From the NCBI GenBank assembly GCA_013820875.1, contig JACDHS010000049.1, positions 1-34,531 of the forward strand: a stretch of 34,531 bases of DNA, given 5' to 3'. This document shows, one piece after another, positions 1,575-34,531 of the stretch; position 1 is the stretch's first letter; each line of letters begins with the position of its first letter. A program made the translations under genes and the position numbers. This DNA comes from Verrucomicrobiota bacterium (lineage in GTDB: Bacteria; Verrucomicrobiota; Verrucomicrobiia; Limisphaerales; JACDHS01). The notes under the pieces were generated by a model, which saw only the letters and a list, made by a program, of their open reading frames with translations, did not search any database and was not told the DNA's origin.

Positions 1575-1910
1575 GTCTCAAGTCCATTTCCAGATCATCC
1601 GGAAACCGTCTGGATGGTCTCAAGCCCACTTCCGGATCATCCGGAAACCGTCTGGATGGTCTCAAGCCCACTTCCAGATCATCCGAAAACCGCCTGGATG
1701 GTCTCAAGGCCACTTCCGGATCATCCGGAAACCGTCTGGATGGTCTCAAGGCCACTTCTGGATCATCCGGAAACCGCCTGGATGGTCTCAAGGCCACTTC
1801 TGGATCATCCGGAAACCGCCTGGATGGTCTCAAGCCCACTTCCGGATCATCCCGAAACGGCCTGGATGGTCTCCAGCCCACGTCCGGATGATCCTAAAAC
1901 CACAGGATAG
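1575..1910. repeat. 42-bp tandem array 1, eight units
   Basis: Units begin at 1575, 1617, 1659, 1701, 1743, 1785, 1827 and 1869, each opening with GTCTC. Units 5 and 6 are identical, unit 8 is the most diverged, and others differ by a few bases. In well-kept units the centre is the palindrome CCGGATCATCCGG, with half-sites CCGGAT and ATCCGG around one C. Units 3, 5 and 6 carry single changes in one arm. Because 42 is a multiple of three, the array reads as a 14-residue periodic frame on both strands (plus strand: P-D-H-P-E-T then W-M). I treat this as a DNA repeat, not a protein. Unit 8 ends in GATCCTAAAACC, which resembles the dispersed flank motif. Confidence 0.9.
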
Positions 1911-17670: not shown

Positions 17671-18558
17671 TTAATCGATCAACCGCCTGGTCAGGTCGCT
17701 GTAGGCGTCGATTCGGCGGTCGCGGAGGAAGGGCCAATGGGTGCGGGTGGTGTCCACTTTTTCAAGATCCACCGGGACGATCATGATCTCTTCTTTATCC
17801 TGGGATGCCTTGGCAACGATTTCGCCGGAGGTGCCGGCCACGAAACTTTGTCCCCAGAATTCCAGGCCATCACCGCCGTCCGGGGCTTCGTGTCCAATGC
17901 GGTTGATCGCAGCGACATAACAACCGTTCGCCACGGCGTGACTGCGCTGGATGAGTTCCCAGGCGCCATGTTGACGCTCGCCGTATTCGGTTTTTTCGCT
18001 GGGATGCCAACCAATGGCGGTCGGGTAGAAAAGAATCTGCGCGCCTTGCATGGCGGTGAGGCGGGCGGCTTCGGGATACCATTGATCCCAGCAAACGCAG
18101 ACACCGATCTTGCCGTGCTTTGTATCCCATGCTTTGAAACCGAGATCGCCCGGGGTGAAATAAAACTTTTCATAGAACGATGGGTCATCCGGGATGTGCA
18201 TTTTGCGATACTTACCCATGAGAGTGCCATCGGCATCAATGACGACTGCGGTGTTGTGATAAAGCCCGGCGGTCCGCTTCTCGAAAAGAGAGGCAATGAT
18301 GACCACTTTGTGCTTCTTCGCGATTTTTTGAAAGGCATCGGTGCTCGGTCCAGGAATTGTTTCGGCGAGTTCGAAATACTTATGATCTTCGATCTGGCAG
18401 AAGTAATAGGAGGCAAACAGTTCCTGGGTGCAGATGATTTGCGCGCCTTGTTTGGCTGCTTTTTCCACCAGGGCGATGGTTCTCTTAAGATTTTCAGCGG
18501 GCTTGCCGGTGGCGTGGGTCTGGATCAACCCAAGGTTAACAACCTTCGAACGTTTCAT
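17671..18558 (-). CDS. aguB: N-carbamoylputrescine amidase (nitrilase superfamily)
   Basis: This 295-residue enzyme hydrolyses N-carbamoylputrescine to putrescine, CO2 and ammonia in the agmatine route to polyamines. The nitrilase triad is visible as E46 (C-T-Q-E-L-F), K119 (Y-R-K-M-H-I-P-D-D) and C156 (V-C-V-C-W-D-Q-W-Y-P-E). The stretch Y-R-K-M-H-I-P-D-D-P-S-F-Y-E-K-F-Y-F is characteristic of the AguB branch. Length is normal. Its ATG overlaps the kinase stop by 4 bp (ATGA), so it is probably co-translated with the kinase. No agmatine deiminase gene is present in the window. Confidence 0.93.
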   Translation of the reverse strand: MKRSKVVNLGLIQTHATGKPAENLKRTIALVEKAAKQGAQIICTQELFASYYFCQIEDHKYFELAETIPGPSTDAFQKIAKKHKVVIIASLFEKRTAGLYHNTAVVIDADGTLMGKYRKMHIPDDPSFYEKFYFTPGDLGFKAWDTKHGKIGVCVCWDQWYPEAARLTAMQGAQILFYPTAIGWHPSEKTEYGERQHGAWELIQRSHAVANGCYVAAINRIGHEAPDGGDGLEFWGQSFVAGTSGEIVAKASQDKEEIMIVPVDLEKVDTTRTHWPFLRDRRIDAYSDLTRRLID

Positions 18559-19562
18559 AAGCGGGGCGGTGACGGCGGACGATCAATTATGATGGTTTCA
18601 CCACGGGAATCGGTGGCGTGAAGCTGCGACGTTTGACCAAACAAATCGCGGATGAAGCGTCCCATTGTCTCGTTCGTTGGGCCGTAGCCTTTGTGATAAA
18701 TAAAGTGCTCCAGTTCATACAACAACTCGTCCGCCGAGCTGTAACGCTTGTCAAGTTCCCGGACGAGTGTGCGCTGAAGAATTTCGTTGAGACGATCGTT
18801 GATGTTCGGGTTCAACGTGCGGAAATCGGGAATCGGCAAAGTCATGATGCGATTACGCGACTCTTCTGGACTGTTACCTTTGAAGATATTGTGACTGAGG
18901 AGCAGGTGGGCGAGAACGACCCCGGTGGAAAATACATCCGAACGTTTGTCAGTGATCTGGAAGTCGGCCTGTTCAGGGCTCATGTAATCGGCTTTGCCGG
19001 CGACCACTTCGCCTTCTTTGTCTTCGAGGAAGCCGGTTGCTTTTGCGATGCCGAAGTCTGTCAGCTTCACGTCGCCTTCAAAGGCAATCATGATGTTTTT
19101 CAAACTGACATCACGATGAACGATTCCGAGTGAGCGACCGTCCCGATCCGTTTTGGCATGCGCGTAAGCGAGTCCGCGGGCGATGCGGCTGGCGATGAAA
19201 ACGCACAGTTCCACCGGCAACTCACGTTCCTTTTCCAGGAGTTGGGTGTGGAACTGTTCCAGGTTGACGCCGCGGATGAGTTCCATCGCAATGAAATAGA
19301 TCCCGCGGGTTTCACCCAGTTGATAGGTTTGGACGATGTTGGTGTGGATTAAGTCCGCAACGAGCTTTGCTTCACCGACAAAATTTTCGATGAAACTCTT
19401 TTGGTTAGCGTAATTTTGTCGAATGACTTTGAGAGCCACGCGTTTGACGAACTCGCGGGTGCCGTGTTGTTCGGCCTCATAAACCACGCCCATGCCACCT
19501 TCGAAGATTTTGCGAACGATTTCGTAACGGAATTCGCTTTGGATAGTGAACAAGCCAGCCAT
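18555..19562 (-). CDS. Ser/Thr protein kinase
   Basis: I take the ATG at 19562 (335 residues) because the kinase fold starts soon after. The frame is open to 19667, which would add 35 residues without clear features. Motifs seen are the Gly loop G-G-M-G-V-V-Y-E-A (22-30), K45 in V-A-L-K-V-I, the catalytic loop H-R-D-V-S-L-K-N (D151), D-F-G at 169-171 and M-S-P-E-Q in place of APE. The S after H-R-D-V replaces the usual Lys, as in many Myxobacterial and PVC kinases (H-R-D-V-S-P). There is no membrane helix or sensor domain; a short tail ends in P-P-S-P-P-R-L. Its stop overlaps the amidase start, suggesting a functional or at least transcriptional link. Confidence 0.92.
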   Translation of the reverse strand: MAGLFTIQSEFRYEIVRKIFEGGMGVVYEAEQHGTREFVKRVALKVIRQNYANQKSFIENFVGEAKLVADLIHTNIVQTYQLGETRGIYFIAMELIRGVNLEQFHTQLLEKERELPVELCVFIASRIARGLAYAHAKTDRDGRSLGIVHRDVSLKNIMIAFEGDVKLTDFGIAKATGFLEDKEGEVVAGKADYMSPEQADFQITDKRSDVFSTGVVLAHLLLSHNIFKGNSPEESRNRIMTLPIPDFRTLNPNINDRLNEILQRTLVRELDKRYSSADELLYELEHFIYHKGYGPTNETMGRFIRDLFGQTSQLHATDSRGETIIIDRPPSPPRL

Positions 19563-19668
19563 GTCGATGATGTTGAGAAAATGCAAATTCAAGTCAAGCT
19601 TAGGCTTGCTTGCGGTGTGATTGGCCGCATTTGTATTTCTTGCAGTGCGTCTTAATTTCCTGAACACC

Positions 19669-19734
19669 AGGCGGGACGCCCGATGAACTCGCAGCCGAGG
19701 ACGGCTACGCTACGTAGGGCAGGCGTCCCCGCCT
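19669..19734. repeat. inverted-repeat element upstream of the kinase gene
   Basis: AGGCGGGACGCC at 19669-19680 pairs with GGCGTCCCCGCCT at 19722-19734 with one bulged base. AGCCG/CGGCT at 19693-19706 forms an inner hairpin and CTACGTAG near 19709 is a self-palindrome. It is REP-like and unrelated in sequence to the element at 17598. Confidence 0.65.
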
Positions 19735-19813
19735 GCCAGTTATGGTACCGTCCCGGTGCCAGTTCCGCCCCACAACCTGAGATGTCCTGCAAGAAAGTGA
19801 GATGTCAGGAGGC

Positions 19814-20090
19814 GTTTTTCCCGTACAGACGAGACCGGACAGTGTGTCCGGAGACGTTTTTGGCGTACAAACGAGGCCGGACAGCGTGTCCAGAGGCGTT
19901 TTTGGCGTATAAACGAGACTGGACAGTGTGTCCGGAGACGTTTTTGGCGTATAAACGAGACTGGACAGTGTGTCCGGAGACGTTTTTGGCATACAAACGA
20001 GGCCGGACAGCGTGTCCAGAGGCGTTTTTGGCGTACAAACGAGACCGGACAGCGTGTCCAGTGAAGTTTTTCGGTCGATTTTCATTGTCT
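19814..20090. repeat. 42-bp tandem array 2, six units and a partial
   Basis: GTTTTT opens the units at 19814, 19856, 19898, 19940, 19982, 20024 and 20066, always exactly 42 apart; the last is partial. Each full unit has a five-T tract, then GTACAAACGAG or a close variant, then an inverted repeat whose best form is CCGGACA-GTG-TGTCCGG. Two unit types occur, one ending TGTCCGGAGAC and one ending TGTCCAGAGGC, in the order 1-2-1-1-2 followed by a hybrid. Units 3 and 4 are identical. Frames are open on both strands with 14-residue periodicity for the same reason as in array 1. Confidence 0.9.
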
Positions 20091-20140
20091 CACGTAATCA
20101 TGTCTCCTATTAGCGACCATCAGCGAAGATTAGCGGTTCA

Positions 20141-20158
20141 AACTGCGGTTTTTAGGAT
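20141..20158 (-). repeat. dispersed motif, copy D (past array 2)
   Basis: It reads AACTGCGGTTTTTAGGAT, the inverse of ATCCTAAAAACCGCAGTT. Like copy C, it follows a 42-bp array on its right side, here about 50 bp after the last partial unit. Confidence 0.65.
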
Positions 20159-20346
20159 GAGAGAATCCGTTGAAAACAGGAAGCAGGCTTTTTCTGTCGG
20201 CAAGATGACGGCAGCACGAATGAGGTAAACTACGTTTTACCCCTATGAAACCAATGCTTTTTATCCTTGCACCACTGAGATGAAACGATTTAATAGCGCT
20301 TAAGTCCAACAACTTGTTAGACCAACAGATCAACAACAAACACACT

Positions 20347-20634
20347 ATGGCTAAAGCACTGACAAAATCACAAATCGCAGCAACTCTGTCGGAACAACAC
20401 GGCATCACCAAAAAGCAGGCGACTGATGTTTTGGATAGTCTCGCGCAGCTCGCTTACAAAAACGCCAAGAACACTTTCACCCTTCCAGGCCTGGGTAAAT
20501 TGGTTCTCGTCAATCGCAAAGCCCGCCAGGGCCGCAATCCTGCCACTGGCGCCACCATTAACATTCCTGCCAAGCGCGTGGTGAAATTCCGCGTCGCCAA
20601 AGCCGCGAAAGACGCGATCCTCGGCGGCAAATAA
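20347..20634 (+). CDS. HU-family DNA-binding protein
   Basis: A 95-residue basic protein starting M-A-K-A-L-T-K-S-Q. I use the ATG at 20347; the frame opens 33 bp earlier but the HU fold begins here. It shows the HU pattern: two N-terminal helices (I-A-A-T-L-S-E-Q-H-G then K-Q-A-T-D-V-L-D-S-L), the G-L-G-K-L-V turn, the DNA-binding arm R-K-A-R-Q-G-R-N-P-A-T-G with the conserved R-N-P, and a C-terminal helix after V-V-K-F-R. HU bends and compacts DNA as a dimer. There is no Shine-Dalgarno site (CAACAAACACACT precedes ATG). A strong terminator follows, so the gene is monocistronic. Confidence 0.94.
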   Translation: MAKALTKSQIAATLSEQHGITKKQATDVLDSLAQLAYKNAKNTFTLPGLGKLVLVNRKARQGRNPATGATINIPAKRVVKFRVAKAAKDAILGGK

Positions 20635-34390: not shown

Positions 34391-34531
34391 GAATCGGTCT
34401 ACGTCAGGCTGTCGCGAGACGTTTTACGGCGAATATCGGTCTACTACAGGCTGTCGTAAGGCGATTTACGGCGAATATCGGTCTACTACAGGCTGTCGTA
34501 AGGCGTTTTACGGCGAATATCGGTCTACTAC
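34391..34531. repeat. 42-bp tandem array 3, cut by the window edge
   Basis: CGGTCTAC recurs at 34395, 34437, 34479 and 34521, exactly 42 apart. The first unit is diverged (it lacks two bases before CGGTCT and has TCGCGAGAC). Later units are nearly identical, and the array continues past the end. Each later unit has the inverted repeat CGTAA/TTACG around five or six bases and the small palindrome ACAGGCTGT. It starts about 30 bp after the sulfatase stop. Confidence 0.85.

Follow-up and report, generated by a model that had tools for sequence, protein, structure and literature searches.

Why should a tandem array of 42-bp units lie in front of a gene for an HU-type protein? The question is raised by a 34,531-nt stretch of a Verrucomicrobiota genome (the window), in which a quasi-palindromic array, array 2, lies between a Ser/Thr protein kinase gene and a divergent gene of the HU/IHF family. 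The preliminary description had pointed to T tracts in this array whose bends would add up in phase, and had speculated about a functional link to HU. The features concerned are the following:

1575..1901, no strand: array 1, of the same architecture as array 2 and of another BLAST family; period 42, 7.8 copies
18555..19565, minus strand: Ser/Thr protein kinase gene, divergent partner of the HU gene; pair kept in 17 of 29 relatives
19638..19760, no strand: left neighbour of array 2, a dispersed intergenic repeat that BLAST finds at 7 places of the 648-kb sample, two of these being here
19803..20090, no strand: array 2, about 6.4 tandem units of 42 bp followed by a degenerate final one; the units are quasi-palindromic, and each has two dyad axes separated by about 21 bp
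19835..19851, no strand: example of dyad 1 in array 2, stem 7, loop 3; related stems at 19919-19935 and 19961-19977
20085..20156, no strand: right neighbour of array 2, an intergenic repeat about 75 bp long and dispersed over the genome (at least 51 matches, self included); not array-specific
20347..20634, plus strand: HU/IHF-family gene, 95 aa, Pfam Bac_DNA_binding at 7e-24
34393..34531, no strand: array 3, of the array-2 BLAST cluster; period 42, cut by the contig end

Array 2 and the kinase/HU locus

TRF places array 2 at 19803-20071 with a period of 42, 6.4 copies, 88% matches and 0% indels, and a degenerate final unit extends it to about 20090. Read in the register from 19814, its units end in GGAGAC, AGAGGC, GGAGAC, GGAGAC, AGAGGC and AGTGAA. 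The sequence and TRF thus bear out the initial account of two unit types in the order 1-2-1-1-2-hybrid, with units 3 (19898-19939) and 4 (19940-19981) identical and TTTTT recurring each 42 bp (starts at 19815, 19857, 19899, 19941, 19983, 20025 and 20067); units 2 and 5 differ by a single base. The recent multi-unit duplication that had been proposed is supported by the identity of units 3 and 4 and by a three-unit super-period of 126 bp, whose better TRF score (442 vs 384 for the 42-bp period) is in keeping with such an event. The units are contiguous and, unlike those of a CRISPR, have no unique spacers between them. The window, the only sequence scanned against Rfam, gave 0 matches at the gathering score, and a phage or plasmid origin was rejected as 19640-20170 has no match in the phage or the plasmid collection searched.

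The eight A/T tracts of at least four bases in 19803-20090 are almost perfectly phased (vector sum 7.85 of 8 at 10.5 bp/turn; P 0.0018 vs random 288-bp windows), so that the idea of bends adding up is arithmetically correct for array 2. However, the feature is not kept in the family. About one A/T tract per unit is found in two of five array-2-family arrays, the tracts are scattered in two others and there are none in the consensus of the fifth, while the commoner 41-bp arrays mostly lose the phase. As judged from computed A/T-tract phasing, curvature is not supported as a conserved feature.

The phased T tracts and the position of the array, which ends 257 bp before the HU start at 20347, are what speaks for a regulatory site related to HU or to curvature. 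The loci of relatives argue against it. An HU match was found in 38 of the 39 genomes counted (own included), and the HU loci of 29 relatives were examined over up to 1.5 kb on each side, partly cut by contig ends; at a TRF score of at least 45, none of the 29 has a 41-43 bp array, although 17 keep the divergent kinase/HU pair. The conservation of the pairing, on which the proposed link depended, is thus not seen at these loci. The kinase/HU pair itself is conserved across families of the order, in many cases followed on the far side of the kinase by a nitrilase-type amidase gene (17671-20634 in the window). In the 17 relatives the gap between the two genes measures 162-504 bp, with a median of 180 vs 781 bp here, which indicates that it probably grew by about 600 bp in this genome.

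The enlarged gap holds at least three dispersed repeats, namely the left repeat, array 2 and the right repeat of about 75 bp. For the latter, the figure of at least 51 matches comes from scoring 40 of 115 first-look candidates; it carries TTAGCG motifs and some of its copies form inverted pairs about 100 bases apart. Repeats from the array 2 flanks lie within 600 bp of arrays at 3/8, 2/6 and 3/7 places (self included), vs 20% of random intergenic positions. The flanks are dispersed repeats that are not clearly tied to arrays.

The array-2 family also occurs at four other loci of this genome (C121, C19, C129 and C140; 75-81% identity), and comparable arrays are found about once per 15-18 kb, a few hundred being estimated elsewhere in the genome. 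Because this density is high, neither the array about 3.4 kb from the second close HU gene of this genome (C69), on its upstream side, nor the one about 2.8 kb from the HU gene of a sister-genus genome (C72 in G001), on its downstream side, is at a remarkable distance. Together with the presence of about one tract per unit in just two of the five family arrays, these observations make an HU- or curvature-related site extremely improbable. Array 2 seems to have no particular connection with HU; it would have landed between the kinase and HU genes by chance.

A common period across dissimilar families

Tandem repeats were surveyed by TRF (score 80) in 41 stretches of this genome, the window included, which together make up 648,228 bases; where TRF rows overlapped, the row kept was that of the smallest period scoring at least 60% of the best. 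The survey yields 52 arrays, of which 40 have a period of 41-43 (23 of 41, 13 of 42 and 4 of 43), three lie at multiples (83, 122 and 164) and nine are of other kinds (six of period 7 or 8, and one each of 18, 33 and 276). After letter-shuffling of the surveyed sequence, 0 arrays reach the same score; the arrays are therefore not due to chance. Dropping the six stretches that are the window or were chosen by hits leaves a less biased 527,227 bases with 34 arrays, 27 of period 41-43 and three at multiples, from which about 324 arrays per genome are extrapolated. The 43 own arrays fall into 22 BLAST families at E 1e-4, 12 of them consisting of a single array. All three arrays of the window have a period of 42; arrays 2 and 3 form one BLAST cluster, array 1 belongs to a different family, and array 3 has 27 matching pieces in the genome, self included.

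A number of smaller observations accompany the survey. Tandem runs whose units measure 7 or 8 bases, with matches of 96-100%, occur at L028:1157-1250, L028:11322-11374, L068:3640-3721, L070:5-64, L070:193-244 and L077:9204-9252; they resemble short tandem repeats known from cyanobacteria. The 276-bp repeat (L077:9963-12598, 9.6 copies) is probably coding. Matches to the array-3 family of about one unit adjoin an array resembling the array-1 family at L205:1500-1752, and at L204:1035-1549 the 42-bp array nearby, a few hundred bases away from them, belongs to another family. Of practical relevance, 8 of 50 sampled contig ends fall in 41-42 bp arrays (the window at 34393-34531, L011, L016, L021, L029, L062, L064 and L077).

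How far does this array system extend among relatives? In the sister genus (genome G001), which belongs to the same family, 34 stretches (one picked for its HU gene) totalling 352,204 bases contain 20 arrays, 14 of period 41-42 and two at multiples. For other families of the order, 6 stretches of 120,000 bases contain 2 arrays, neither with a period of 41-43, and 20 stretches of 383,912 bases contain 8 arrays, one of 42 bp with 2.3 copies. Contigs of named Verrucomicrobia and Kiritimatiellota (9 loci, 146,910 bases) contain 2 arrays and other phyla (71 loci, 1.36 Mb) 10 arrays, in both cases with none of 41-43. In the stretches sampled outside the two genera, 1 of 22 arrays thus has a 41-43 bp period. 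The array-2 family itself was found in 1 of 320 genomes of the order, this one, with at most two candidates scored per genome listed. Hence the array system found here is lineage-specific and present in both sampled genera of one bacterial family. By its cbb3 oxidase protein the genome comes closest, among named records, to Verrucomicrobia, Limisphaerales and Pedosphaera MAGs (79-80% identity, the own record possibly being left out of the comparison), which makes a place of the family in Verrucomicrobiota probable.

When both genera are pooled, 72 arrays form 41 BLAST families (E 1e-3), of which 31 have a period of 41-43 or multiples. Four of the 41 clusters contain both genera; one of them is clear (E 5e-24), with period 41 on both sides at 67-71% identity and 5 to 11 small gaps in three alignments. 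Dispersed repeats in bacteria usually belong to a single sequence family or a handful of them, with a length particular to each. Here, 31 BLAST families from two genera have one period or its multiples, many with a dyad design, while the sequence turns over, a situation like that of eukaryotic satellite DNA. The surprise is this common four-turn period across families without detectable similarity. Four helical turns would be the obvious geometry for 41-43 bp, as in the sopC site (PMC6238139), yet by calculation 41 and 43 bp dephase at 10.5 bp/turn.

One account of such a pattern is neutral, i.e., slippage alone builds the arrays and the common period reflects descent from one old array. The identity of neighbouring units and the range of periods from 41 to 43 within one BLAST family fit this account. 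So does the weakness of the constraint on indels, whose rate inside arrays is 0.064 in this genome and 0.115 in G001, compared with 0.116-0.135 in flank modules; the deficit within arrays is weak. However, 31 BLAST families have kept 41-43 or multiples, the other families of the order, in the stretches sampled, have few arrays and no such period peak, and in one superfamily (array-2/3) paired changes appear to maintain the dyads. We consider purely neutral minisatellites an unlikely explanation.

A bolder reading, which is possible although we lean against it, is that of a chromosome-wide palindromic-array system in a Verrucomicrobiota lineage whose sequence is free to change while its period is locked near four turns. 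If this is true, the locked period would call for an unknown machine, either a scaffold protein that reads shape or an enzyme that builds arrays against a ruler of 41-43 bp. A period under selection would point to a nucleoprotein structure or to a copying mechanism with a ruler, and the arrays would offer a large natural set of sites for testing.

Dyads, gene context and the spread of arrays

The dyad design of the units was measured as the best circular reverse-complement match of each unit, vs shuffled units. In 40 own units the mean match is 0.59 vs 0.47 after shuffling, with 24 (about 60%) at p<=0.05, and 27 of the 40 score above the 95th percentile of random intergenic 42-mers (n = 2,550); a stricter test for a single local inverted repeat gives p<=0.05 in 19 of 43. 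In the sister genus, 5 of 14 units reach p<=0.05. Significant circular symmetry is thus absent in 16 of 40 own and 9 of 14 sister-genus units. Where it is present, it implies two dyad axes half a period, or about 21 bp, apart.

Covariation was analysed in the array-2/3 superfamily with 13 distinct consensus units from 14 arrays. Paired cells amount to 73.5% vs 64.4% in shuffles and 31.9-41.0% with slid axes, and the covariation score is 0.282 vs 0.160 in shuffles, none of 500 being as high, and at most 0.109 with slid axes. The paired percentage, the cells changed on both sides and the covariation score are above chance, while two of the five measures are not (9 vs 8.8 pairs with a change on both sides; 18 vs 17.0 further pair types), and a separate count of our own for pair types likewise stays at chance level (8 vs 8.3). 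As the aligned units are related to one another and also served to choose the axis, these results support, without proving, that the dyads of this superfamily are kept by compensatory changes. As a single strand, 19814-20066 is predicted to fold into long hairpins with many three-base internal loops (folding z of -4.9 for the plus strand as RNA and -7.4 for the minus strand as DNA); the pair list, with 24 G-T and 17 A-C cells, does not discriminate between RNA and DNA folding. Hairpin folding, either of RNA or of single-stranded DNA during copying, would keep the dyads, and the four-turn period would be held by the hairpin structure or by an unknown DNA-binding protein.

Such a protein might go further and use the arrays as a scaffold. 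The units would then be iterated dyad sites for a homodimeric DNA-binding protein, spaced by four turns on one face of the helix, and would serve to organise or segregate the chromosome like sopC, which comprises twelve 43-bp repeats with ten 16-bp inverted repeats (PMC6238139). The period of 41-43 bp or multiples in 31 of 41 families, the dyad axes about 21 bp apart and the family that has period 41 in both genera at 67-71% identity agree with this proposal. On the other hand, many dissimilar sequences per genome would demand many specificities or a reader of shape, the compensatory changes, which occur regardless of base identity, are more easily explained by folding than by a sequence-specific site, and spacings of 41 and 43 bp drift out of phase at 10.5 bp/turn. 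The protein is moreover putative, no candidate having come to light in a non-systematic search. We regard the scaffold as rather doubtful; its likelihood overlaps with that of the reading preferred below because both can hold.

According to rough gene calls, coding sequence makes up less than 50% of 39 of the 43 own arrays and of 15 of the 16 in G001. For the 23 own non-coding arrays that could be placed between two genes, these genes are divergent in 9 cases, co-directional in 8 and convergent in 6, vs 31%, 51% and 18% of intergenic bases, respectively; 16 further own non-coding arrays at stretch edges are outside this count. With these few arrays, there is no clear preference for an orientation of the flanking genes, and thus no support for a promoter or terminator role. 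Tandem bidirectional terminators or transcription insulators would explain why 8 of 11 terminator-like sites in 19550-20400 fall within array 2, the shuffled region giving 0.9 in total, and why hairpin and T-run units occur in 4 of 40 arrays vs 0.1 expected. But 36 of the 40 arrays lack such units, and convergent placement (6 of 23, vs 18% of intergenic bases) is in no clear excess. This function is very unlikely to account for the arrays.

How, then, do the arrays spread? One case is family D, in which a 41-bp array sits inside a larger mosaic element. A query of 86 bases spanning the leader and the start of the array finds 26 places; in 16 of them the identity is at least 97% across 71-86 bases, and the other 10 are weaker or partial. 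Because several copies are located at contig ends, some may be one copy seen twice, which makes the true number uncertain. Identity of the left module to the reference is 96-100% for 16 of the 24 copies, 88% for two and 80-85% for six. Six copies have a sharp right end in common, others leave the element earlier, and left ends vary; L254:1302-1967 and other family D places are mosaic, with several alternative left ends. Copies differ by whole units: relative to L254, the right module of L260 is displaced by 82 bases, or two units, and that of L270 by 123 bases, or three units. A leader sequence over 34-59 aligned bases is also common to four family-B arrays. For array 2, no end module was found in common within its family.

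Array 2 would likewise be a variable core within a larger element, a mosaic repeat of which copies lie at many places. This is seen for family D, and for array 2 it is an extension from that case because no module was found. Array length would change by whole-unit gain or loss, through slippage or unequal recombination. We thus judge it on balance probable that array 2 is a lineage-specific palindromic minisatellite of BIME/BOX-like type, one of about 320 by extrapolation, mostly intergenic and spread by the copying of elements combined with slippage of units.

Which enzyme might move such elements? Searches for Y1 transposases and for reverse transcriptases (PF00078) identified no mobilising enzyme for the arrays. 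REP/BIME elements moved by a RAYT (Y1 tyrosine transposase) would be palindromic, mostly intergenic and high in copy number with compensatory changes, as observed here; the genome has seven Y1 matches, three of them strong, and O. terrae (Verrucomicrobium) is reportedly highly enriched in GTAG-type REPs (PMC3733652). However, a 41-43 bp array lies near one of the seven Y1 loci, about 0.9 kb off, which is about what array density predicts; the search for single units near these loci used the 43 sampled arrays as BLAST queries. Across 8 genomes, the number of Y1 matches (0 to 30) does not track arrays, whose absence elsewhere rests on short stretches, and each of many dissimilar families would need its own transposase. 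Mobilisation by a RAYT thus finds no support and is, in our estimation, improbable. The 30 Y1 family matches of genome G013 include many that span just about the first half of the domain. Reverse transcriptase was rejected as a generator, as PF00078 does not track arrays in 8 genomes either (one fragmentary match in G000, one each in G001, G037 and G011, two in G025 and none in three genomes).

Comparison with known repeat systems

Some of the properties described above are known from other bacterial repeats, although no description of such arrays was found in the literature searched, which included the available parts of PMC4210602, PMC3733652, PMC3049150, PMC6238139, PMC9426551 and PMC2817692. 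Within the PVC group, 54 short tandem repeats are mentioned for Methylacidiphilum fumariolicum (PMC4210602), and a passage that continues to Planctomycetes places intergenic tandem repeats behind noncoding deletions (PMC9426551); in contrast to the arrays here, neither excerpt describes a common period or a palindromic unit. The MIRU of Mycobacterium tuberculosis are likewise dispersed minisatellite loci that vary in copy number (PMC3635867). They differ from the present arrays, which comprise many families, often with palindromic units, and have a narrow common period.

The sopC site of plasmid F, with its twelve 43-bp tandem repeats and ten 16-bp inverted repeats, comes close in unit length (PMC6238139). 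The arrays here are tandem repeats of about 43 bp as well, often with an inverted repeat per unit. However, sopC is one plasmid locus beside its own partition genes, whereas many chromosomal loci are concerned here, and the neighbours of array 2 are a kinase and HU, not partition genes.

The BOX elements of S. pneumoniae and S. suis are built as boxA-[boxB]n-boxC, with varied end modules around one core in S. suis (PMC3049150). They resemble the present elements in being dispersed and modular, with a short-unit tandem array of variable number between end modules. Family D is built in this way, having conserved left and right modules and arrays that differ by whole units. The differences are that many dissimilar families here have one period, that end modules were not found for array 2, and that pneumococcal BOX elements are over-represented between convergent genes (PMC3049150), for which there is no clear excess here. 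The REP/BIME of enterobacteria, Pseudomonas and Stenotrophomonas are high-copy palindromes with alternating symmetric units and complementary mutations (PMC2817692, PMC3733652). The arrays here are also intergenic, palindromic and high in copy number, but no RAYT association was found and the 41-43 bp period spans dissimilar families. The nearest known kinds are BOX and REP/BIME, and what sets the present arrays apart from both is the number of families with one common period.
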